Source: an uncultured Anaerolineales bacterium
Lineage (GTDB): Bacteria > Chloroflexota > Anaerolineae > Aggregatilineales > Aggregatilineaceae
Direction: 5' to 3'
Length of the DNA stretch: 64,000 nucleotides
Assembly: GCA_937135955.1 (NCBI GenBank)
Contig: CAKZOB010000004.1
Location: forward strand, 1 to 64,000
Shown: positions 19,172 to 31,939 of the stretch, in pieces
Layout: the number at the start of each line of letters is the position of its first letter
Position numbering within the stretch: the first letter of the stretch is position 1
The notes under the pieces: model-generated
What the model was told of the DNA's origin: nothing
The model's input: the letters and a program-made list of their open reading frames with translations, nothing else
Database searches by the model: none
Made by a program: the position numbers and the translations under genes

Positions 19172-19480
19172 AGCCCTTCGAGAAGTCCTGATCGGCAGCT
19201 CTACCTCATCGCTAAGGCCCTTCTCCACGCGCGGAGACTGCAATATGCACTTACTCGTCTCTCGGCCATGTATGGAAGGAGGCCGGGGGACTTAGCGCTG
19301 TTTTCCCCTCACCATTCTCACTTCCGCCAGTTGTCCTCTCGCCACATTACAGCCCTGTAGCCTTACGGAATCGTAGTCTCTCTGTAAGGCTGGTGTAATT
19401 CCCAGCGCCGATCCTTATGCGCAGGGTAGCAGATGGCACTGACCATCAAGAAGATCGATGCACTGGAAAGGAGAACAGTG
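19172..19480. other. Intergenic region before the small secreted protein
   Basis: A 309-bp gap. Its right part holds the GTAA box (19373-19398), overlapped by an 8-bp inverted repeat (AGCCTTAC at 19359-19366 and its mirror at 19384-19391). The left part shows nothing I recognise. Confidence 0.5.
19373..19398 (+). promoter_or_regulatory. Three direct GTAA-type blocks at 11-bp spacing (regulator box 1)
   Basis: GTAG at 19373, GTAA at 19384 and GTAA at 19395: exactly 11 bp from block to block. The same layout occurs at 20027-20052. Direct repeats with one-turn spacing are the usual binding sites of OmpR/PhoB-type regulators, and one is encoded at 31244. Confidence 0.6.
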
Positions 19481-19942
19481 ATGTTCAAGAAAGTCTGGTT
19501 CACGGCACTGGCGGTGGTAGCGGTCTCCGTGCTGGGCGCGGCGAGCGCCTTCGCCGACGGGGACGAAACCAGCGGCTGCATGTTCTACAACGAGGACGAG
19601 GACGTGTGGATCGCGGGCTACTGCGACGGGCGTCTTAATGCCTTCGACATCGCGCAGCCGGTGGCGATCTACTACAGCTACGACACCGTGCTGGCGACCG
19701 ATGAGGATGGCAATCCTTACTGGACGGACGTGGTGGATGCCATCGAAATCTGGGTCATCGACTCGGAAGGTGTGGGGCAGTTGGCGTTGCGCGTCCCCGC
19801 TGCGCAGATCGCACCGGCGTTCAACGCCATCAGCGACGTACAGATCGCCGCGGTCAACGGGATCACGCTCAACTATTCACCTTCCGCCGATGCGTTTTGG
19901 GTCACCGCACCGGGCTATTCCTTCGTCTGGGAAGCCTGGTGA
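19481..19942 (+). CDS. Small secreted protein, possibly in the regulon of the downstream sensor system
   Basis: 153 residues from the ATG at 19481 behind AAAGGAGAACAGTG; the frame is open 48 nt further up but without support. A clear signal peptide (VWFTALAVVAVSVLGAASAFA) precedes an acidic secreted domain with two cysteines (CMFYNEDEDVWIAGYC) and a C-terminal aromatic segment (SFVWEAW). I do not recognise the family. It carries the same upstream GTAA box as the following operon and has its own terminator. Confidence 0.8.
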   Translation: MFKKVWFTALAVVAVSVLGAASAFADGDETSGCMFYNEDEDVWIAGYCDGRLNAFDIAQPVAIYYSYDTVLATDEDGNPYWTDVVDAIEIWVIDSEGVGQLALRVPAAQIAPAFNAISDVQIAAVNGITLNYSPSADAFWVTAPGYSFVWEAW

Positions 19943-19967
19943 TTGTGACACCCTCCTCCCAGAGGTG

Positions 19968-20001
19968 TGGGGCGCGGGTATTCCTGCGCCCCAGCTTTTT
20001 T
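19968..20001 (+). terminator. Intrinsic terminator of the small secreted-protein gene
   Basis: TGGGGCGC (19968-19975) pairs with GCGCCCCA (19986-19993), followed by GC and six T. Confidence 0.9.
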
Positions 20002-20026
20002 CCCGACAGGCTCACATTTCGAAACT

Positions 20027-20052
20027 GTAATGTTCCCGTAAGGGCGATGTAA
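20027..20052 (+). promoter_or_regulatory. Three direct GTAA blocks at 11-bp spacing (regulator box 2)
   Basis: GTAA at 20027, 20038 and 20049, all 11 bp apart, just upstream of the eight-gene operon. GTAAGG..G.TGTAAT is shared with box 1. A possible -10 (TACATA, 20079-20084) follows. Confidence 0.65.
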
Positions 20053-20108
20053 TGTCGCCGGGCGATGCTGTGGACGGCTACATAACTCATCTGGCAGGAG
20101 AGAAAGCG

Positions 20109-22829
20109 GTGAAAGCTGACAAGTTAGTCTCGTTGTTTTGCGCACTGGTGGTAACAGTAACCCCCCTGATCGGAGCGCTATGGCCGGTGGACGGGGACAC
20201 GGTGAGCGCAGAAGGGGCGACGCTGGTGCTCAGCGTTCCCTATATCTGGGAGGACGTGCTGACGCCAGACCTGCTGGCCACTTTCGAAGCTCAGCACGCC
20301 GGCGTGGACGTGCAGGTAGTGTTCAGCGAAACGGCCTTCTTCGGGTTCGGCCCGGCGGGCGCAGTCGAAGATCAGCTTGACGCCACTGAGGAGCGGGTGA
20401 CCGCCGCCGACGTGCTCTATGTGGATTCCTCGACGCTCTCCGTTGCCGATACGCAGGCAGGCTACTATCTCGACCTGGCCCCGCTGGCGATGAGCGATCC
20501 GGCGCTGGACATCGCCGACTTCATACCCGCCGCCTGGCAATCGTTCCAGTGGGACAATGGCCTGTGGGCACTGCCCCTTTCGGTAGATGTGATCTTGGTC
20601 ACCTACGATCCGGCGGCCTTCGACGAGGTCGGGCTGGCCTATCCCAATGAGCGCTGGACGATTGACGACTTCGCCTATGCGGCGCGCGCATTGGCTCAGT
20701 ACAACGTCGATGGCACAGTGGCGACGCCCGGCCTGTCAACTGTGTCGGGCGGCAACAACCAGGCTGTCTTTCTGCGGGCACTGGCCGGGACCGGTTTTTA
20801 CGACTCCGCTTCTGTGCCCAATGCGCCCAGCTTTGCCAACCCCAACCTGGAGTACCTCCTGCAGACCTGGTACGAACTGGTCAGCGAAGAGGTGGTGCTG
20901 GCGCAGGGCGGCGGACGTGAGGAGGCGATCCCCCTGCGCGTCGAGGGCATCAATGGTTACGCCGAGCGCCGCGGCCCACGTGAGCAAGACGCTGCAGAGA
21001 CGCGCTATGCCTCGCTGTTGCCCGGCGGTGTGGCTGGCCTGAACGTGCAGGGCTTCGCGGTGAGCGCGGGCACGCAGTACCCGGAACTGGCGTATGCCCT
21101 GGCCAACTTCCTGACGGGGCGCTCCGAACTGGCCACCAACGCCTTCAGCGCGGTACCAGCCCGTTATAGCTTGGCCGACTCGCAGACGGCAACCAGCGCC
21201 GCAGCCAACAACCCGACGGGCAGCCCAGGGATGCCAGGTGGCCCCTTTGGGGGGGCGCGCACCGTGCCGGAGGCGATTCGCCCCGTGCTGGAACAGGGGC
21301 TGACCTCGGCCTTGCCTGTGGCTGAACTGCGCTACGCCTCCTACCTCAGCGCTGTGCTGAGCGAGATGCTGAGTAGTGGCACCGATGCGCTCTCGGCGTT
21401 GCAGGCAGCAGAGGCGCAGGCGTACAGCGACATGCAGACGGCCGTAGCCCGCGCGGACACGGTGTCGCTGATGGTGATTCCTCCTGCGCCGCAGCCGACC
21501 CTGGCGCCGGGCGAGATCGCGCTGACCTGCGCGGTGAACGTAGGCTTTGGCGGGCCGATGCGTGGCGGACAGTTGCCCAACCAGTATGAATGGGACGGGT
21601 TGATCGCTGACTTCGTGGCTGCCGATCCAGTGGTTGGCGCGGTCACACTGGAGTCGGTGCAGGAAAACGACCTGGCGACGCTGGCCGAACAGTACGATTG
21701 CTTCATCTTGTCCGGCAATGTGGTCGAGGGTAGCGACCTCAGCCCGCTGCTCAATCTCGATCCGCTGCTCGACACCGACGCGACTTTCGATCGCAACGAC
21801 ATCATTGGCAATACCCTGTCTCAGTTGCAGCGAGATAACAAAACCTGGGGGCTTCCGCTGGCGATTCAGCCGCAGATGCTGCAATACGACCCGCAGCAGT
21901 TCGCGCAGGCAGGCGTGCCGGAGCCGCTGAATGGCTGGACGGTAGATGCTTTCGTGGATGCCCTGTACCGCCTCAAGCCCTACGACACCGATCCCACGCC
22001 CTTCGTGCCCGCTGATCCGAGCGGATCGTATCTGCTGATGCTGATCGCAGCGTTCGGCGGCCTGCCGCTCGACTACCGCACCGATCCGCCCGCGGTGAAT
22101 TTCACCGACGAGGAGACGGTCGAGGCGATCCAGCAGGTGCTCGACCTGGCCGTGCAGGGGTACATCAGCTACAGCGCCCAGGCCACTTTCTCTATGGCGG
22201 GTACAGACTCGTCGTCGCCAGCCATCACCACCAATACCATGAATCAGTTCCGCCCTGCTATGCCCGGACCGGATAGGGGGACCCAAAGCGACACGGCGCT
22301 GACGACCTACCCGCAGGGCAGCCGCTATAACGCCGTCGCCTATGAAATTACGGCGGGTTACATCAGCGCGACTGCGCAGAATCCAGAGGCTGCGTACCGC
22401 TTTCTGAGCGCAGTAGCCCGCACACCTCAACTGTTCTCCGGCATGCCCGCGCGCGGATCGCTCGTTTCTGATCCGGCGGTGATTGCGGCTCAGGGGGCAG
22501 ATGTCGTCGCTGCCTATCAGCAACTCGACGCGCTGTTGCGCGCGCCTAATACGATTGTCTTCCCCACCTTCGGCGCGGGGCGCGGCGGCGGTGAACTGAC
22601 CATGGTGGTGTCCTACTGGTTACGGCGCGCCTTCGACCGCTACGTGCTGGAAGGGGCCGATCTCGAAACCGAGCTGGCTGAGGCTGAGCAACTGACCCTG
22701 GCCTACCTGGAGTGTGCTCAAGGCATAGCAGTTGACCAGGAAGCGGACACACCCGAACAGCGCTTCCAGCAGTTCGAAGCACTGCGTCAGTGCGCGACCA
22801 GCGTTGATCCGGAGTTCGGCCAGGGCTGA
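20109..22829 (+). CDS. Exported protein with two tandem solute-binding domains
   Basis: About 906 residues from the GTG at 20109 behind GGCAGGAG; an upstream in-frame ATG at 20052 lies inside the regulator box and is unlikely. A signal peptide (LVSLFCALVVTVTPLIGALW) leads into one family-1 solute-binding domain (about 40-400, LVLSVPYIWEDVLTPDLLATFEAQ, AYALANFLTGRSELA) and, after a Gly/Pro linker, a second (from about 470, ending near 880). Normal binding proteins have one such domain and work with MalF/MalG permeases; none is here. In this operon it may present a ligand to the sensor or to the FtsX permease. That role is inference. Confidence 0.8.
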   Translation: MKADKLVSLFCALVVTVTPLIGALWPVDGDTVSAEGATLVLSVPYIWEDVLTPDLLATFEAQHAGVDVQVVFSETAFFGFGPAGAVEDQLDATEERVTAADVLYVDSSTLSVADTQAGYYLDLAPLAMSDPALDIADFIPAAWQSFQWDNGLWALPLSVDVILVTYDPAAFDEVGLAYPNERWTIDDFAYAARALAQYNVDGTVATPGLSTVSGGNNQAVFLRALAGTGFYDSASVPNAPSFANPNLEYLLQTWYELVSEEVVLAQGGGREEAIPLRVEGINGYAERRGPREQDAAETRYASLLPGGVAGLNVQGFAVSAGTQYPELAYALANFLTGRSELATNAFSAVPARYSLADSQTATSAAANNPTGSPGMPGGPFGGARTVPEAIRPVLEQGLTSALPVAELRYASYLSAVLSEMLSSGTDALSALQAAEAQAYSDMQTAVARADTVSLMVIPPAPQPTLAPGEIALTCAVNVGFGGPMRGGQLPNQYEWDGLIADFVAADPVVGAVTLESVQENDLATLAEQYDCFILSGNVVEGSDLSPLLNLDPLLDTDATFDRNDIIGNTLSQLQRDNKTWGLPLAIQPQMLQYDPQQFAQAGVPEPLNGWTVDAFVDALYRLKPYDTDPTPFVPADPSGSYLLMLIAAFGGLPLDYRTDPPAVNFTDEETVEAIQQVLDLAVQGYISYSAQATFSMAGTDSSSPAITTNTMNQFRPAMPGPDRGTQSDTALTTYPQGSRYNAVAYEITAGYISATAQNPEAAYRFLSAVARTPQLFSGMPARGSLVSDPAVIAAQGADVVAAYQQLDALLRAPNTIVFPTFGAGRGGGELTMVVSYWLRRAFDRYVLEGADLETELAEAEQLTLAYLECAQGIAVDQEADTPEQRFQQFEALRQCATSVDPEFGQG

Positions 22830-22885: not shown

Positions 22886-25651
22886 ATGCATCGTGTACTC
22901 GATCCCATCATCTTTGCCCTTGAACGGCTGTGGAATCACCGGGCGCTGGTCTTCTGGGCGCTGGTGGGGTTGTCGGCAGCAACCACGCTGGCGCTGAGCC
23001 TGAGCCTGTACGTAGATGCCGTCAATACCGACCTGCTGACCGAGCGGCTCAGCGACCCGCCCTATGCGTTCCGCCTGCGTTATCTGGGCAGTTGGGAGGG
23101 CAATATCAGCGCACAGGAGGTTAGCCAGGCCACAGAGGCTATTGAGGGCAGCTTTGTAGAGACAATCGGTCTGCCCCTGACGCGCTTGGCCCGCTTCGTC
23201 AGCGCGGGCAACTGGAATGTCGTCCGCCAGGGGGAGACGCCGGTCGCCTTCGGAGCCTATACCCTGGGCACGCTGGACGGCGTCGAGGCGCAGATGCGGA
23301 TCACGGCGGGGGAGTGGCCGCCTGCTGAGACGGACGGGGACGCAATCCCTGTGCTGATGGCGGAGAAGCTGCTTTATCAGACGGGCTTGCAGGTAGGAGA
23401 CGTGCTGACGGCCACGCGGTCGGGCGCTGGTAGCCCGTTGAAGCTCCAGATCGTCGCCCTGTGGACGCCGGTGGACTCCCAAGACCCGTCGTGGATTCTG
23501 ACGCCCAAGTTCTTCGATACGGTCTTCCTGATGACCGCTGCGGACTTCTGGGAGGCGGTGGGGGCGCTCGCGCAGCCGATCGAAGAGGTAGACTGGCAGT
23601 TCATCTTCGACGGGCGCGGCCTGCGCACCTCGGCAGTCTCCGGCTTGCTAGAACGCATTACCGACGGCAAACGGGCGGTGATGGCTGCCCTGCCCGGCAC
23701 ACGCCTGGATGTGACGCCTGAAGAAGGGCTGCGCGCGTTCCAGGACGAGGTCAACCGCCTCACCGCCCAACTAGTCATCGTCGTGCTGCCCGTCGCGGGC
23801 CTGATCCTCTACTTCGTGACCATGCTGGCGTCCATGTTAGTAGGCCGTCAGCAGCAAGAGGATGTAGTGCTCAGCAGCCGGGGGATGAGCCATCCCAAGT
23901 TGTTGAGCGTGCACGCGCTGATGTGGTTGTTCCTGGCGGGGCTGGCGCTGGCGATCGGTCTGGCGGTGTCGCCGTCTGTAGTGCAACTCATCGGGCGCAC
24001 GTCCTCGTTCTTGCGCTTCGACTATCCGACGCCGGCGCTGGAGATCGTCATCACCCGTCAGGCGCTACTGATCGGAGCGGCGACCGGCCTGGTGGCGGCC
24101 AGCAGTGGACTGGCCCTGGCCTGGCGGGCTACGGGACAGTCCATCAGTCAGTTCAAGCGCGTGCAGGCACGGTCGGGCAAGGCCTGGTGGCAGCGCGTTT
24201 ATCTCGACGTGATGCTGCTGGTGCCCGCTGCTTACGTCTTCTATACCTTGCAGGCGCAGGGAGGTCTTTCCACGGGCGCACAAGACCCCTTTAGCGACCC
24301 CCTGGTGTTCCTGGCTCCGACGCTGTTTTCGCTGGGCTTCACCCTGATGATGTTGCGCCTCTATCCCTTTTTGCTGGCTCAACTGGCCCGTCTGGTGAGC
24401 CTGACCCGCAGCATTGCCCTGCTGATGGCCTTGCGCGAACTCACGCGGTCCATCGGGCGTTACCGCGGCACGCTGCTGATGACTTGCTTCACGCTGAGCC
24501 TGATCGGCTTCACCGCTTCGATGGCCAGCACGCTGGATCGCAGTCTGGAGGATGTGATGCGCTATCGAGTGGGCGCAGAGCGCGTGCTGGTGGTGGCGGC
24601 GGAAGCGCAGACGGAAGAGGGCACGTCTTCAGAAAGCGGTACCGAGCTGACTGTGGTCGGCTACAACACCCTGCCCGTCAGCAGCCTGCTGGAGATCGAG
24701 GACATCTATGCGGCCTCGCGCGTGGGGCGCTATCAGGCGCAGATCGTGCTGCCCGGCCAACGTCTATCGGGCACAATCCTGGGCGTGGATCGGGCGACTA
24801 TGGCCGCTGTCGCCCATTTCCGTCCAGACTACGGCCCGGAGCCACTGGCCGACGCGCTCAACCGGCTGGCGGGCAACCGGACGGGCGTGTTGCTCAGCGC
24901 GGCAGCGGCTGAGGAATACAGGCTGGGGGTAGGGCAGGAGATCACCCTTCAGATTTCTGCGCTCAATACCTGGTACTCCACGCAGGTGCCGATCGTGGGA
25001 GTGCTCGATTACTTCCCCACGCTCGATCCGCGCCAGGGATTCTTCGCGATCACCAACCTCGACCCGATCTTCGAGCTGGTCGGCACGGAACTGCCCCACA
25101 ACATCTGGCTGAGTCTGCGGCCAGGCGCTGATGACCAGGCTGTGCTGGCCCAGATCAAGGCTTTGGGATTTCCGGTGTTGGACTGGCTCGATCCGCAGGC
25201 GCTGATAGCCGAGGCACAGGCCGACCCGACGCGGCGCGGGGTGTTGGGGTTCCTGTCGGTGGGTTTCGTCTCCGCCATTCTGTTGACGCTGGTGGGCAGC
25301 GTGATCCAGAGCACGGCGTCGTTTCGCGCTCAGGCGGTGCAACTCGGCTCGTTGCGGGCGATGGGACTGGGCAGTCTGGCCGTGGCGGCCTATCTGCTGC
25401 TGGCGCAGGGGATCGCGGCGCTGGGCGGGATCAGCGGTGGCACGCTGATCGGGATGATCACGACCCTGCTTTTTCTGCCCTTGCTGGATTTCAGCGGCGG
25501 TCTACCGCCGTATCTGGTGCGGGTGGCCTGGGGAGATATCGTCCTGGTCTATTCGGTGTTCGCGGCGGTGTTGTTCGGCGTCACCGTCCTGACGACGGCG
25601 TTGCTCAGCCGACAACACGCCTCTACCTTGCTCAAACTGGGGGATGCTTGA
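22886..25651 (+). CDS. ABC transporter permease with two FtsX domains
   Basis: A 921-residue membrane protein starting behind GAGGGAACGCC. Layout: first helix about 18-45, a large extracytoplasmic MacB-like region (about 50-290), an FtsX block of three helices (about 295-420, LVIVVLPVAGLILYFVTML), further helices at about 440-550, a second outer region (about 560-780) and a final FtsX block (about 785-910, GFLSVGFVSAILLTLVGSVIQ). Such proteins do not carry small solutes; they drive conformational changes, lipoprotein or peptide export, or resistance. The two ATPases downstream are its likely partners. Substrate unknown. Confidence 0.85.
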   Translation: MHRVLDPIIFALERLWNHRALVFWALVGLSAATTLALSLSLYVDAVNTDLLTERLSDPPYAFRLRYLGSWEGNISAQEVSQATEAIEGSFVETIGLPLTRLARFVSAGNWNVVRQGETPVAFGAYTLGTLDGVEAQMRITAGEWPPAETDGDAIPVLMAEKLLYQTGLQVGDVLTATRSGAGSPLKLQIVALWTPVDSQDPSWILTPKFFDTVFLMTAADFWEAVGALAQPIEEVDWQFIFDGRGLRTSAVSGLLERITDGKRAVMAALPGTRLDVTPEEGLRAFQDEVNRLTAQLVIVVLPVAGLILYFVTMLASMLVGRQQQEDVVLSSRGMSHPKLLSVHALMWLFLAGLALAIGLAVSPSVVQLIGRTSSFLRFDYPTPALEIVITRQALLIGAATGLVAASSGLALAWRATGQSISQFKRVQARSGKAWWQRVYLDVMLLVPAAYVFYTLQAQGGLSTGAQDPFSDPLVFLAPTLFSLGFTLMMLRLYPFLLAQLARLVSLTRSIALLMALRELTRSIGRYRGTLLMTCFTLSLIGFTASMASTLDRSLEDVMRYRVGAERVLVVAAEAQTEEGTSSESGTELTVVGYNTLPVSSLLEIEDIYAASRVGRYQAQIVLPGQRLSGTILGVDRATMAAVAHFRPDYGPEPLADALNRLAGNRTGVLLSAAAAEEYRLGVGQEITLQISALNTWYSTQVPIVGVLDYFPTLDPRQGFFAITNLDPIFELVGTELPHNIWLSLRPGADDQAVLAQIKALGFPVLDWLDPQALIAEAQADPTRRGVLGFLSVGFVSAILLTLVGSVIQSTASFRAQAVQLGSLRAMGLGSLAVAAYLLLAQGIAALGGISGGTLIGMITTLLFLPLLDFSGGLPPYLVRVAWGDIVLVYSVFAAVLFGVTVLTTALLSRQHASTLLKLGDA

Positions 25652-25653
25652 GA

Positions 25654-27036
25654 ATGAACGCTCGTTTGACAACCGTGTTCCCTACTTTGCTGATGGTGGC
25701 GGTGTTGGCAGGCCTGGCCTGGCTGACTGCTGCCTGCTCGACTGTCGAGGAACTGACGCAAGACGAAGCCGCGCAGGCCCAAAGCGCGCCTACTTCCACG
25801 CCGGTGCCCACTGCTGCTGTGGCAGCGCGCCCGACCTATGTGGTGCAGCGCGGCACGGTGGAAGAAGTCTTCACTTTCACCGGACGCTGGCAGCCGCGCG
25901 ACCAGATGATGCTCTCCTTTCCCGTCAGCGGGACGGTAGGGCAGGTGAACGTCCGGCGCGGTGACGCGGTGCGCGCGGGCGACCTACTGGCGGCTTTCGA
26001 CACCAGCGATCTGGAGAGTCAGCTTGCCAGCGCCCAGATCAAACTGGAGACAGCGCTGAAGAGCGTGAGCAGTAGCAGCGAAAGCGGCGTGCAGAGTGTC
26101 GAGAATGCGCAAATCGCGCTGGCCAATGCCCGCCTGTCGTTGGAAAGCACCAAGGCGGGTAGCCCCTGGACGAGCGTGGCTTCGGCGCGGCTGCAACTTG
26201 AATCCGCCGAGCAGTCGTTGACCGACGCTCAGCGCAGCTACTATGAGGCCATCAGCAATCCGGCGAATTCTGCGGCGACCGTGGACAACGCTTACAAGCA
26301 GTTGCTCAATGCGCAGCAACAACTGGAGTCGGCACGACTCAACTATTTTTCCGCTGCGCAAAACTACGCCAAATATGAAACCAGCGTAGCCCAGGCCGAG
26401 AACGCCGTGATCCAGGCCGAATTGAACCTGCAACGCGCCATTCAGGACGCGCAGGCTGGCGTCAGTGACGAGAATGTGCGTTCCGTCCAGCTTGAAATCG
26501 ATCAGATCAAACAGTCCATCGCCGAATCGTCGCTCTACGCGCCCATGGATGGCGTGATCCTGGACGTGTACATCAAGGTGGGGGACAGCGTCAAAGCCTA
26601 CGATACGGTGATCGTGCTGGCCCTGCCAGAGCCGAAGGAGATCATCGCCACCTTGGCCATCAGCGACGCGAATCGGCTGAGCGTGGGCATGGTGGGCGTC
26701 TGCCAGGTGATAAACCGCCCGGAGACGGCGGTTGGCTGTGCGGTGCGCTCGATCCCCCTTAGTAGCAAGGATGCCGATCAGACTACGCGCGTTGTCGCCT
26801 CGCTGAGCGACGTGCCCGACAACCAACTGATCGAAGTCAAAATGCCCCTGGAAGTGCGCGAAAACGTGCTCTGGCTACCTCCCAGCGTGATCCGCACTTT
26901 CCAGAACCGCACCTTCGTGGTGCTGGAGACCCCCGACGGCCCGCGCACGGTGGACGTGCAGCTTGGCTTGCAGACTGATGAGCGGGTCGAGATCGTCAGT
27001 GGCGTCAATGAAGGGGATGTGGTGATCGCGCCTTAG
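25654..27036 (+). CDS. HlyD/MacA-like adaptor lipoprotein
   Basis: About 460 residues. The ATG at 25654 is preferred over a TTG at 25648; both touch the permease stop. The N-terminus has a hydrophobic stretch ending LTAAC, a possible lipobox, then a Thr/Pro linker. Domains in order: split biotinyl-lipoyl hairpin (GTVGQVNVRRGDAVRAGDLLAAFD, later SLYAPMDGVILDVYIKVGD), a long alpha-hairpin between them (about 120-290, Ala/Gln/Leu-rich coiled coil) and a beta-barrel with membrane-proximal part to the end. Such adaptors link an inner-membrane ABC pump to the envelope. Confidence 0.88.
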   Translation: MNARLTTVFPTLLMVAVLAGLAWLTAACSTVEELTQDEAAQAQSAPTSTPVPTAAVAARPTYVVQRGTVEEVFTFTGRWQPRDQMMLSFPVSGTVGQVNVRRGDAVRAGDLLAAFDTSDLESQLASAQIKLETALKSVSSSSESGVQSVENAQIALANARLSLESTKAGSPWTSVASARLQLESAEQSLTDAQRSYYEAISNPANSAATVDNAYKQLLNAQQQLESARLNYFSAAQNYAKYETSVAQAENAVIQAELNLQRAIQDAQAGVSDENVRSVQLEIDQIKQSIAESSLYAPMDGVILDVYIKVGDSVKAYDTVIVLALPEPKEIIATLAISDANRLSVGMVGVCQVINRPETAVGCAVRSIPLSSKDADQTTRVVASLSDVPDNQLIEVKMPLEVRENVLWLPPSVIRTFQNRTFVVLETPDGPRTVDVQLGLQTDERVEIVSGVNEGDVVIAP

Positions 27037-27063: not shown

Positions 27064-28029
27064 ATGTCAACACAGCACAGCAACGGAGCAGCCTATATCC
27101 GCTGCAAGAACGTGGTCAAGGCCTATACCGTCGGCGATCACGAAATCGTGGCCTTACGCGGGATTGACTTCACCATGCAGCGCGGTGAGATGGTGGCCAT
27201 TGTGGGGCCAAGTGGGGCGGGCAAAAGCTCGCTGCTCAACCTGTTGGGCGGCCTGGACACGCCAACTGCCGGCCAATTGAGCGTGGGCGGGCTGAATCTG
27301 CTCGAACTCAAGGGGCGCGCCCTGGCCGACTACCGGCTGCGACAGGTGGGGTTTGTGTGGCAGCAGGTGGAGCGCAATCTACTGCCGCACCGCTCGGCGC
27401 TGCGCAATGTGACCCTGCCGATGATGATGGCTGGCGTCGGCATAGGTGAGCGTACTCGTCGCGCGCGGGAACTGCTGGCCGCCGTAGGTATGAGCGAGCA
27501 CAGTCACAAACTCCCCGAACAGCTTTCCGGCGGGCAGCAACAGCGTGTGGCTATCGCCGTAGCGCTGGTCAATCGCCCTCAGGTGTTGCTGGCCGATGAA
27601 CCAACGGGCGCGCTCGACCGGGCCAGCGGTGAACAGGTGATGGCGTTGCTGGCTGATCTACGACGGCGCTACGGCCTGACCGTGTTGCTGGTGACGCACG
27701 ACATGGAAATGGCCGTGTACGCCGATCGCGTGTTAACGCTGCGCGACGGCGCGCTGGGGCAAGACCTCAGCCACGCGCTGGCGGATACGCCGCCCGCTCT
27801 CGACGAGGAGGGCCGCATCCGCCTGCCACCCCTGGTGCGTTCGCACCTGGATAGTGCGGCGCGCATTGCGGTCGAAATCCGGCCCGAAGGCGTGCTGCTG
27901 CGACCGGAGCAGGAAAGCGAAGACGACACCGAAGCGCTGTTGCAGACTATGCTGCCGCGCTCTGCACCCAGAAAACGCTGGTGGCCCTTCCGGCGCAACG
28001 GTCGCGCGGCGCAGGAGGAGCGACTATGA
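27064..28029 (+). CDS. ABC transporter ATPase with C-terminal extension
   Basis: A 321-residue ATPase of the MacB/LolD class: Walker A GPSGAGKS (about 48-55), Q-loop VWQQVERN, signature LSGGQQQR, Walker B VLLADEPTG and the H-loop VTHDME. The last 85 residues or so (LDEEGRIRLPPL..., basic tail KRWWPFRRNGR) are an extension beyond the normal domain and may bind the partner or the membrane. It starts 27 nt after the adaptor gene and overlaps the next ATPase by 4 nt. Confidence 0.92.
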   Translation: MSTQHSNGAAYIRCKNVVKAYTVGDHEIVALRGIDFTMQRGEMVAIVGPSGAGKSSLLNLLGGLDTPTAGQLSVGGLNLLELKGRALADYRLRQVGFVWQQVERNLLPHRSALRNVTLPMMMAGVGIGERTRRARELLAAVGMSEHSHKLPEQLSGGQQQRVAIAVALVNRPQVLLADEPTGALDRASGEQVMALLADLRRRYGLTVLLVTHDMEMAVYADRVLTLRDGALGQDLSHALADTPPALDEEGRIRLPPLVRSHLDSAARIAVEIRPEGVLLRPEQESEDDTEALLQTMLPRSAPRKRWWPFRRNGRAAQEERL

Positions 28030-28751
28030 ACGAGACGCTGGCGGTACAGGTGCGTGGAGTAGAACGTCGCTTTGGCGACCTGCAAGTGTTGCGCGGCGTA
28101 GACCTGGACGTGCGCCAGGGCGAACTGGTAGCCCTCTTTGGGCCGTCGGGCAGCGGCAAAACGACCCTGCTGAACCTGATCGGGGCGCTGGACTGGCCGG
28201 ATGCCGGCGAGATCGTCGTGCTGGGGCGGGATATTCTCCGGCTCGGCGAGCGAGGCCGCGCGCAGTTGCGCCGCACGCAGATCGGTTTCGTGTTTCAGGG
28301 AACGTCGCTACTACCCACTTATTCGGCGCTGGAGAATATTGACCTGGCGCTGCGCCTGCCTGGCCTGGGGTACTTCGAGCGGCGCAGACGGGCCAAAGCG
28401 ACCCTGGCGGCGCTGGGGTTGAGCGCGTGGGCCAACCATATGCCGGAAGAACTGAGCGGCGGGCAGCGTCAACGCATTGCCATCGCCCGCGCGCTGGCTT
28501 TGCAGCCCCGCCTGATCCTGGCCGATGAGCCGACCAGTGGGATAGATGCTGCTGCGGTTCGCCGCATCCTGACACTCTTTCGGGGCGTGGCTGAGGCGCA
28601 GGGCACCGCTTTTCTCATCGTGAGCCACGATCCGTTGGTCGCGGACTACGTGGACACACTCTATGACCTGGTGGACGGCAAAGTTGTCCGACGCCAACCT
28701 GATCTTGAGAATGACACACGCGAACGGAGGGATAAAGCATGGGTCGGTTAG
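28026..28751 (+). CDS. ABC transporter ATPase, second subunit
   Basis: A 241-residue ATPase with Walker A GPSGSGKT, Q-loop FVFQGTSLLP, signature LSGGQRQR, Walker B LILADEPTS and H-loop VSHDP. It is of standard LolD/MacB length. The start (ATGA overlap with the previous stop) makes a coupled pair of different ATPases for one double permease, which suggests a heterodimer. The following gene starts 13 nt inside its 3' end. Confidence 0.92.
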   Translation: MNETLAVQVRGVERRFGDLQVLRGVDLDVRQGELVALFGPSGSGKTTLLNLIGALDWPDAGEIVVLGRDILRLGERGRAQLRRTQIGFVFQGTSLLPTYSALENIDLALRLPGLGYFERRRRAKATLAALGLSAWANHMPEELSGGQRQRIAIARALALQPRLILADEPTSGIDAAAVRRILTLFRGVAEAQGTAFLIVSHDPLVADYVDTLYDLVDGKVVRRQPDLENDTRERRDKAWVG

Positions 28752-29656
28752 TGGCAAAGTTGAGCATGATGGGGCTGTTGGTGGTTGTCTCGGCTCTGGC
28801 GGGCGCGTTGTTCTCGATGTTCAGCGAGGCGGGCACGCAGGATGCGCCCTCCGCACAGGCCGGGCAGGTGGTCATCGAGGCCCCGCCCACTTTTATTCGT
28901 TCGTCCAATATGAGCGCTATTCTGGCCACGGTGACGCCGCAGCCTTCACCGACCAACACGCTGTTGCCGCCGCCGACATTCGAGCCGCCGACCGCTACCC
29001 CTACGCCTTCGCCGGTGCCCAGTGTCACCCCAACGCCCACCTTTGTTGTGAACGTCGAAATTCCCGGCCTGCATGGGGCAGAGACCCCCACGCCAACCTC
29101 GACACCAGGATGCACTCCGCGCCAGGACTGGCACCTGACTTATACGGTACAATTCGACGATACGCTCAGCGCCATCGCCGCACGCTATGGGACATGGGTG
29201 GACGAACTGGCCGCGGCCAACTGCATCACCGACAAAGACCTGATCGTGGTGGGACAGGTGTTGCGCGTGCCCGGCGACGCTCACCCTGAGCAGCCAGAGG
29301 TGGAATGCGTGCCCTGGGAGGTGCTGACGCCTTTCAACGGATCGGTGACGGTGCCCGCCGACGGGACGATCACCTTCAACTGGCGCGGTCCGCTGGCTCC
29401 CATCAACCTGATCCGTATCTACCGTCCCGATGGCTCGGTGTACGAGCGGGTGATCGAGTTGCGGCAGAATGAGACGATTGACCTGAATACCTATCTGCCG
29501 CAGGAGGGATTCTACACCTGGTATGTCTATCCACTGGGGCGCGATTTTCAGCAGATCGAATGCCTGGAAGGCGGCCCGTGGACGTTCTACAAGCCGGAAT
29601 CATCGCCTGTGACTTCGTCCTCTGGCAGTTCGTCTACGGGGACGAAGCCGGGGTAA
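28739..29656 (+). CDS. Membrane-anchored LysM protein
   Basis: A 305-residue protein with an N-terminal membrane helix (MMGLLVVVSALAGALFSMF), a long Thr/Pro/Ser linker (about 60-125), a LysM domain (about 130-178, TYTVQFDDTLSAIAARYGTWVDELAAAN) and a C-terminal beta domain (about 195-285, ITFNWRGPLAPINLIRIYRPDGS). LysM binds N-acetylglucosamine polymers such as peptidoglycan, so the protein probably senses or anchors to the cell wall. The tail is Ser/Gly-rich. It sits between the ATPases and the sensor kinase. Confidence 0.88.
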   Translation: MGRLVAKLSMMGLLVVVSALAGALFSMFSEAGTQDAPSAQAGQVVIEAPPTFIRSSNMSAILATVTPQPSPTNTLLPPPTFEPPTATPTPSPVPSVTPTPTFVVNVEIPGLHGAETPTPTSTPGCTPRQDWHLTYTVQFDDTLSAIAARYGTWVDELAAANCITDKDLIVVGQVLRVPGDAHPEQPEVECVPWEVLTPFNGSVTVPADGTITFNWRGPLAPINLIRIYRPDGSVYERVIELRQNETIDLNTYLPQEGFYTWYVYPLGRDFQQIECLEGGPWTFYKPESSPVTSSSGSSSTGTKPG

Positions 29657-29679
29657 CGACACCGGCAAGCGAGGGGACT

Positions 29680-31278
29680 ATGCCAGTTCAGCACTTTCTG
29701 CCCGACCGGCGTTCGATCCGCTGGTGGTTACCGCTCAGCTATGCGGCGATCGCCCTGTTGGCTGCTGCGGCGCTGGGAGGACTGCTGTTGTTCACCCTGC
29801 GCCAACACTACAACGAGATGGAACGCCGTTACCTGGAAGTCAGCGCGGAGGCTATCGCGCACAGTGCCGAGCGTTTGTTTCTCGACCGCCAGATATTGCC
29901 AGAGGAAGTGTTCCAGTCCTCGGCCAACATCTACAGCTTTCTGGTGAAGTCGCGCGTGCGGCTGCTGGATGTCGAGCAGCGGGTTGTGGCCGATTCCGGT
30001 AGCGTCTTGCAGCAGAGCACGCTCAGCGTGGATGTGCGCAAGCCACTATGGACATTGCAAGAGCCTGCAGGCACGCCGCCCGCCGCCTACGAGACGTTCC
30101 TGAGTGTTCGGCAACAGGAACCTGCTCCGCCCCCTGAAGACGAGAACTCGCCGCGCTACCCCATTCCGGTGCCACGTCGGCTGGATAATCCCGGTTGGAT
30201 GGGGGGGATCGTCACTTCGGATTCGCACACCGACCTCAGCCTCACCGTGCCTCTGTTCGACCGCGAGGGGACGCTGTTGGGATATGTCGAGCTATCCGAA
30301 AGCCCGGCCTTTGGTCGCGATATCATCACCGACGTGGCCGAAAAGGCTGTGCTGGCGGGCGCGATCGCGGTGCTGCTGGCTGCGTCGGCGGGCTGGATGG
30401 TCAGCCGACGGATCACACAGCCGGTGTTGGCCCTGGCTCAGGTCACTCGCCGCATGGCCGAAGGAGACCTGACCGCTCGCACGAACCTGCAGCGGCGCGA
30501 CGAATTGGGACTGCTGGCGCGGACGTTCAACACGATGGCCGAGCGCATTGAGGACACAGTACTCACGCTCAGACGTTTCGTGGCGGATGCGGCGCATGAG
30601 ATCAACACGCCGATCACCGCGCTGCGTACCAACCTGGAACTGGCCGCTGGCGGTGCGCTATCCGCTGAGGGGCTGGCCGATCTGGAGCGCGCCCAGGTCG
30701 AACTGACGCGGCTGGAGACGCTCACACAGAGCCTGCTGACCCTTTCGCGCCTGGAAGCGCACGGAGTCGAGCGTATCCGCACACCTGTTGACCTGAGCGC
30801 GCTGATCCGCCAGGTGGTTGAGAATTTCGCGTCGCGGGTGGAGCAGACCGGTATTACCCTGACGCTCGCCCTGCCCGCTGAGGCACCTGTTGTCCAGGGC
30901 GATGAGGAGCAACTCGCCCGCGTGCTGAGCAACTTGCTGGACAATGCGCTCAAATTCACACCCGCTGGTGGAACGGTGACAGTCTCTCTGCAGAGCGTGG
31001 CTGACAGGGTTCAGGTAAGTGTGACGGACACCGGCATTGGCATTCCTGCCGAAGACCTGCCGCGCCTGTTCAGCCGCTTTCATCGGGGGCGCAACGCCGC
31101 GGCCTTTCCCGGCAACGGGCTGGGGCTGGTGATCGCCAAAGCGATCGTGGAAGATCACGGCGGACAGATCGCGCTGAGCAGCTCTGCCGCTGGGACAAGC
31201 GTGGTTTTCTCCTGCCACAGGAGGGGCGATAGGAGGCAGGGCCATGACGGTTTACCAGATTCTCTTGATCGAAGATGA
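29680..31278 (+). CDS. HAMP-domain sensor histidine kinase
   Basis: About 532 residues from the ATG at 29680 behind GAGGGGAC. Helix 1 at about 15-38, an extracytoplasmic sensor domain (about 40-225), helix 2 (about 226-245), HAMP (to about 300), HisKA with phospho-acceptor H306 in DAAHEINTPI, then the ATPase domain with N-box LSNLLDNALKF, G1 DTGIGIP and G2 GNGLGLVIAK. The 3' end overlaps the regulator gene by 35 nt. It is probably the sensor for the whole operon. Confidence 0.95.
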   Translation: MPVQHFLPDRRSIRWWLPLSYAAIALLAAAALGGLLLFTLRQHYNEMERRYLEVSAEAIAHSAERLFLDRQILPEEVFQSSANIYSFLVKSRVRLLDVEQRVVADSGSVLQQSTLSVDVRKPLWTLQEPAGTPPAAYETFLSVRQQEPAPPPEDENSPRYPIPVPRRLDNPGWMGGIVTSDSHTDLSLTVPLFDREGTLLGYVELSESPAFGRDIITDVAEKAVLAGAIAVLLAASAGWMVSRRITQPVLALAQVTRRMAEGDLTARTNLQRRDELGLLARTFNTMAERIEDTVLTLRRFVADAAHEINTPITALRTNLELAAGGALSAEGLADLERAQVELTRLETLTQSLLTLSRLEAHGVERIRTPVDLSALIRQVVENFASRVEQTGITLTLALPAEAPVVQGDEEQLARVLSNLLDNALKFTPAGGTVTVSLQSVADRVQVSVTDTGIGIPAEDLPRLFSRFHRGRNAAAFPGNGLGLVIAKAIVEDHGGQIALSSSAAGTSVVFSCHRRGDRRQGHDGLPDSLDRR

Positions 31279-31939
31279 TCCGGGCATCGCGGGCAGTCTG
31301 CGCACAGCTCTGACGCGCGAAGGCTATAAGGTGCATTGGGAAGCACAGGGGCAGGGTGGGGTGGCTTATGCCCGCGAGCATTCGCCGCATCTGATCATCC
31401 TGGATGTGCGCCTGCCAGACGGGTCTGGATTCGACTTCTGCCGTCAGATGCGTCAGATGGGTATCCGGCAGCCAGTGATCATGCTGACCGTGCAGGCGGA
31501 AGAGACCGACAAGGTGCTGGGACTGGAAATGGGCGCGGACGACTATCTCACCAAGCCCTTCAGCCTGCGCGAGTTGTTCTCGCGCGTGCGGGCGCAGTTG
31601 CGCCGCGCCTATGGCGAACTGGCCCTGGGCAACAGCGACGTGCTCTACGCGGGCGACCTGGTCATTGACCGGCTGCGCGGCAATGTCCTGCGCGGCAACC
31701 AGGTGATCAACGTGACCCCTACGGAATTGCGCCTGCTCACCTACCTGGCCCAGCACCCCAATCAGGCGCTCAGCCGGGGACAGATTCTCGACGCCGTGTG
31801 GGGCTACGACGACACGCCGGAGACCGAACAGGTGGTGACGGTCAATATTCGCCGCCTGCGCGAGAAGATCGAACCCGACCCCAGCCATCCGACGCTGTTG
31901 CTCACCGTGCCGGGCATTGGCTACAAACTGGTCAGTTGA
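31244..31939 (+). CDS. OmpR/PhoB-family response regulator
   Basis: A 231-residue regulator: receiver domain with the acidic pocket DD at 11-12, phospho-acceptor D54 and the Lys in DDYLTKPFS, then a winged-helix DNA-binding domain (about 135-230, VTPTELRLLTYLAQHPNQ, VTVNIRRLREKIEP). It is the last gene of the operon and the partner of the kinase it overlaps. The GTAA boxes at 19373 and 20027 have the direct-repeat form expected for its target, so the operon is probably autoregulated. Confidence 0.95.
   Translation: MTVYQILLIEDDPGIAGSLRTALTREGYKVHWEAQGQGGVAYAREHSPHLIILDVRLPDGSGFDFCRQMRQMGIRQPVIMLTVQAEETDKVLGLEMGADDYLTKPFSLRELFSRVRAQLRRAYGELALGNSDVLYAGDLVIDRLRGNVLRGNQVINVTPTELRLLTYLAQHPNQALSRGQILDAVWGYDDTPETEQVVTVNIRRLREKIEPDPSHPTLLLTVPGIGYKLVS

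Follow-up and report, generated by a model that had tools for sequence, protein, structure and literature searches.

A putative phased operator with one inverted and three direct half-sites before a small secreted protein gene and a MacAB-type exporter operon in an uncultured Anaerolineales bacterium

The window (i.e., the whole 64,000-nt stretch of DNA analysed here) carries two adjacent transcription units on its + strand. The first one encodes a small secreted protein of 153 amino acids (19481-19942; family A4), recognised as an open reading frame with a signal peptide. Its AlphaFold model shows a confident beta-rich core (residues 61-153), for which neither a PDB match at E ≤ 0.001 nor a Pfam family was found that could point to a function. 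An invariant CDGR motif marks the unnamed family of which this protein is a member. The second unit is an operon of eight genes, all on the + strand, which were assigned by domain and family profile matches: (i) a twin extracellular solute-binding-like protein with a GTG start (20109-22829; SBP_bac_1 in two stretches); (ii) a MacB/FtsX-like permease (22886-25651; MacB_PCD); (iii) an HlyD/MacA-like adaptor (25648-27036); (iv) a MacB/LolD-like ABC ATPase (27064-28029); (v) a second, LolD-like ABC ATPase (28029-28751); (vi) a LysM protein (28739-29656; domain match); (vii) a HAMP sensor histidine kinase (29560-31278 as the longest open reading frame, the true start probably lying inside); and (viii) an OmpR/PhoB-type response regulator (31244-31939). 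An intrinsic terminator-like hairpin (19968-19993, + strand), suggestive since one is seen against a background expectation of 0.8, separates both units and gives a weak reason to think that each of them needs its own promoter.

The start of the first operon gene was placed at GTG 20109, which is preceded by the ribosome-binding-like sequence AGGAGAG and at which the signal peptide begins; in consequence, the second of the two boxes described below lies upstream of this gene. The ATG at 20052, start of the longest open reading frame, was rejected, as the gene would then begin at the end of that box and overlap it. The product of this gene consists of two solute-binding-protein modules fused in one chain. 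The operon lacks a typical sugar-importer permease and holds MacB/FtsX-type parts only; the twin protein may act as a sensor or as an exporter accessory. A MacB-like permease, an ABC ATPase and an HlyD/MacA adaptor occur together, as expected of a MacAB-type exporter (permease and adaptor are also found in the relatives G300 and G395). MacB proper, with ATPase and permease in one chain, is a different case: the ATPase reaches 225 bits against an equivalog cut-off of 966, and the permease is a separate protein of 921 amino acids.

The regulator contains a PF00072 receiver and a PF00486 Trans_reg_C domain, both above their cut-offs, which bears out the earlier note in placing an OmpR/PhoB-type regulator at the end of the second unit. 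It falls in no named NCBIfam equivalog: the best match is MtrA (212 bits, cut-off 300), followed at a distance from their respective cut-offs by PhoB (192 bits against 296.2 for TIGR02154) and the heavy-metal regulators (171 bits against 279.2 for TIGR01387). The second-best family match of the kinase is to heavy-metal sensor kinases (204 bits, cut-off 292), and domain and family searches recognised no metal-resistance gene in the operon. Metal sensing, at which this kinase match and the half-site sequence hint, may be taken as a lead only.

Two clusters of phased words precede these units. Box A has GTAG at 19373 and GTAA at 19384 and 19395, and box B has GTAA at 20027, 20038 and 20049; these positions and the common 11-bp period, read directly from the window, are exactly those given in the earlier note. 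At up to one mismatch, GTAA-N7-GTAA-N7-GTAA matches the window twice, at boxes A and B, and matches none of 100 dinucleotide shuffles of it. The 4.28-Mb host genome contains a single exact occurrence. When the pattern was compared with chance genome-wide, as the earlier note had proposed, it came out at background level: three one-mismatch matches against five for the reversed control, with no enrichment. The bare triplet is, therefore, not above the genome background, and this count is what speaks for regarding the phased words as a functionless product of chance. Nevertheless, such a reading has a negligible probability, being contradicted by all of the comparative evidence and refuted already by conservation: the boxes are considered real because two of them stand before two genes, at a distance of 654 bp from each other, and because relatives have retained both.

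Both boxes turned out to be longer than the triplets first noticed, being extended by an inverted half-site on the upstream side (at 11 bp) and by a -10-like hexamer on the downstream side. Each of them thus comprises four half-sites on an 11-bp period, followed at a fixed distance by the hexamer. On the + strand, box A consists of half-site 1, CTTAC (19362-19366), inverted relative to the GTAA units; half-sites 2-4, GTAGT/GTAAG/GTAAT (19373-19399), conserved in G001, G003, G009, G010, G012, G016 and SJ7; and the hexamer GATCCT (19410-19415). Box B, likewise on the + strand, consists of the inverted half-site 1, ATTTC (20016-20020); half-sites 2-4, GTAAT/GTAAG/GTAAT (20027-20053), which are backed by the pattern searches, the aligned sites and the site model; and the hexamer GATGCT (20064-20069).

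This architecture derives from 38 non-redundant aligned sites, in which information amounts to some 1 bit per column within the box and some 0.1 bit outside it, with a second peak at the -10 position. In the hexamer, A2 is invariant (38/38) and T6 is present in 37 of the 38 sites, while position 1 is not conserved; it starts 15 nt past the start of the last GTAA, i.e., 16 nt from the last TGT. No -35 hexamer was found inside the box, and no consensus sigma-70 -35/-10 promoter in the region, although this consensus may not be the host genome's own. Half-site 1 and the hexamer emerged from an alignment of 15 sites which had been selected on the phased GTAA units, and neither was part of that selection. 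Half-site 1 (consensus ATTAC) runs opposite to the three GTAA(T) units and, hence, the core of the site is a 6-4-6 inverted repeat, ATTACR-N4-YGTAAT.

Half-sites about one helical turn apart within promoters are what is expected of an OmpR/PhoB-family operator, and the direct-repeat description in the earlier note holds for the three phased direct units. It does not hold for the first half-site, which is inverted as in boxes of the AgrR/CopR type (ATKACA-N4-TGTMAT); the inverted repeat is the majority architecture among the aligned sites, boxes A and B themselves being imperfect examples. One might still take the boxes for plain PhoB-type operators with four direct repeats in tandem, the upstream ATTAC being a mere degenerate direct unit, given that three of the four units are direct at 11 bp and that the -10 follows the last TGT at 16 nt, as it does in the pho boxes of Escherichia coli pstS. 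Pho-box half-sites, however, are all direct, and the column profile of unit 1 correlates at 0.96 with that of the other units when these are reverse-complemented, against 0.24 in direct orientation, its mean match being 4.61 of 5 to ATTAC and 1.92 of 5 to GTAAT; a purely direct arrangement is accordingly held to be very unlikely. The mixed symmetry leads to a broader proposition, to which even chances are given: that these boxes represent a lineage-wide class of operators in Anaerolineae, with one inverted and three direct half-sites on one helical face, locked to the -10 and recognised by a single OmpR-family regulator that binds the same DNA as one symmetric and one tandem dimer. If true, it would provide a fixed operator in which orientation switches within a single regulator-DNA complex.

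A sequence-only covariance model was built from the 15 sites chosen only on phased GTAA units. At E ≤ 1 it retrieves exactly two sites from the host genome, namely boxes A and B. Across the 18 genomes of the GTDB family, it finds 25 sites at E ≤ 1e-3, distributed over 13 genomes, against nothing below E 0.3 for a control model of reversed sites. As judged from the true and reversed models, only the full 60-bp site is specific, and the bare GTAA triplet is not. Scores were computed only for the top-ranking candidates of an initial screen (150 per genome for genus and family, fewer for order and class), so that weak sites may be missed. The box, the first operon gene and the regulator (≥75% identity) occur together in 13 of the 18 family genomes and are all three absent from the other five; if the genomes counted as independent, which does not hold for relatives, one perfect coincidence of this kind would have a probability of 1 in 8568.

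The first operon gene has orthologs in the genomes of the genus and in other Anaerolineae, and phased GTAA boxes lie upstream of them at nearly all of the loci outside the window first examined. The exception is L030, whose first gene is 38% identical and which has no box in the standard orientation. At this distant ortholog locus, three phased TTAC words (GTAA when read on the complementary strand) stand ahead of the first gene (L030 550-597) and point the other way from every other box. Conservation also extends, in G001, G003 and SJ7, to the box in front of the small secreted protein.

Twenty-six sites lie outside the training set of the model (18 from the family, four more from the order and four from the class). 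They can be distributed as follows: (i) 21 of the 26 stand before genes of the exporter/two-component system, including rearranged operons and distant families; (ii) two precede other secreted proteins (a small one at L078 and one of 492 amino acids at L082); (iii) one, in G437, lies beside a kinase fragment; and (iv) two, L076 and L080, have no recognisable gene of the system downstream. Since sites recur before the same genes across many genomes, the regulon is considered real and unusually well defined; conservation and co-occurrence strongly support its predicted extent, i.e., the small secreted protein plus the eight-gene ABC/sensor operon. At L076 (1501-1557, G013), a good box (E 1.8e-6) is followed by no recognisable gene and by a hairpin-like sequence with flanking AAAAC/GTTTT; it would be either a remnant promoter or a short non-coding transcript.

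Where operons are rearranged, the boxes move together with the genes. L031 has three boxes at three promoters, one preceding the permease group, another the kinase-regulator pair and the third the solute-binding-like gene. L029 and L090 carry boxes before the kinase as well as before the solute-binding gene, and so do, more weakly, L032 and L033; at L029, the regulator lies just upstream of a box and the second box precedes the kinase. The contig of L032 bears the label Bacteroidetes, probably in error: it harbours the Anaerolineae system with boxes of the usual form, and the same site also turned up in a genome from the order to which the window belongs. Three distant families (G300, G395 and G414) have a box, recognised by sequence only, between a regulator ortholog (66-69%) and a MacA-like adaptor, which in G300 and G395 is followed by a MacB-like permease. 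Paralogous second systems in G016, G005 and G010 have recognisable but diverged boxes, and the compared loci share a conserved recognition-helix region in the regulator.

This linkage bears on the identity of the protein that binds the boxes. The host genome encodes 19 proteins with an OmpR-type DNA-binding domain, so another of them could bind here while the operon-encoded regulator acts elsewhere; half-sites are, moreover, alike within the family (e.g., the AgrR box). The box, however, co-occurs with the regulator at 31244-31939 across the 18 family genomes, directly adjoins its ortholog in three other families and appears in diverged form at the paralogous second systems, all of which makes a different binder quite improbable. 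Boxes A and B are, with good confidence, the operators of the regulator at 31244-31939, which would control in a class-II-like manner the small secreted protein and its own MacAB-type exporter two-component operon.

The following sequence of events can be proposed. In response to a putative signal, the partner HAMP kinase would phosphorylate the regulator, which would then fill the operator, probably with one dimer bound to the palindromic pair of half-sites and a second to the tandem pair. This second dimer would cover the -35 region, and the bound regulator would recruit RNA polymerase as a class-II-like activator, which is the most likely mode because the operator occupies the -35 region and the -10 lies at a fixed distance. 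The small secreted protein would be switched on from box A, and box B would establish positive feedback on the operon for exporter, solute-binding-like protein, kinase and regulator, given that the controlled operon ends with the regulator gene. Occupation of the -35 region can also block the polymerase, and the regulator might then be a repressor released by the signal; the box, nevertheless, has no -35 hexamer and keeps its -10 at the fixed distance used by class-II activation, and repression is for this reason regarded as unlikely. The targets have in common a MacAB-type exporter, secreted/surface proteins and a HAMP kinase, which suggests that the response concerns the envelope or efflux.

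Three known systems can be compared with these boxes. AgrR is a CopR/CusR-like heavy-metal response regulator of Cupriavidus metallidurans whose box is a 16-bp inverted repeat, ATKACA-N4-TGTMAT, in the position of a type II activator and subject to positive autoregulation; some of its operators have extra in-phase direct half-sites, and both the repeat and these extras contribute to activation (PMC7380067). The core ATTACR-N4-YGTAAT matches the AgrR box, and added in-phase direct half-sites are common to both; among the 38 sites, four match all 12 positions of the AgrR consensus and 14 do so within one mismatch. The boxes described here differ in that two further direct half-sites always lie on the promoter side in fixed 11-bp phase, the regulator remains below the NCBIfam heavy-metal cut-off (171 against 279 bits), and the genes controlled, among which no metal gene was identified, would be those of a MacAB-type exporter and of secreted proteins. 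As to the PhoB-dependent pstS promoter of E. coli, there too half-sites phased at 11 bp replace the -35, and 16 nt separate the last pho-box TGT from TATTTT, presumably the pstS -10. Pho boxes, in contrast, are all direct with the half-site TGTCA instead of TGTAA with an inverted unit 1, and the regulator here does not reach the cut-off for PhoB (192 against 296.2 bits). Finally, the operators of ArcA, another OmpR/PhoB-family regulator of E. coli, have two to five half-sites with an 11-bp centre-to-centre spacing (PMC3798270). Multiple half-sites at this spacing are shared, but the ArcA operators consist of direct repeats whose number and position vary, while number, order and -10 distance are constant in the boxes of Anaerolineae.

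No paper defining a response-regulator operator in Anaerolineae was found in the literature searched. The boxes are a novel form of a familiar kind of regulatory site, the new part being the larger, mixed-symmetry operator. Sequence alone has sufficed to delimit a small regulon that is complete and whose operator is sharply defined; since regulator, operator, promoter geometry and targets are all named, a single purified protein and a pair of DNA fragments are enough for a test. How the DNA-binding domains of the OmpR family select their orientation is a question for which this constant combination of inverted and direct half-sites provides a clean test case.

Other phased elements were encountered along the way. 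The third one-mismatch match in the host genome lies on contig 73 (80539-80564 of G000; L099 1040-1065, - strand) and reads GTAAAAACTGTGTAAC followed by CTAA, in an intergenic position before a PDZ-domain protein. It is present in all five genomes of the genus (also L035, L037, L038 and L040), including those without the exporter operon. This match was rejected as a further box of the present system, as it is conserved in the genus but differs in sequence and context; it may be the operator of another regulator. Lastly, a phased GTAG/GTAA/GTAA box, GTAGCGATCCTGTAAAATTGC, stands directly before the gene of another OmpR-type regulator (35% identity) at L044 1501-1526 (G002) and L049 1501-1526 (G003), which suggests a second autoregulated system of the same style.
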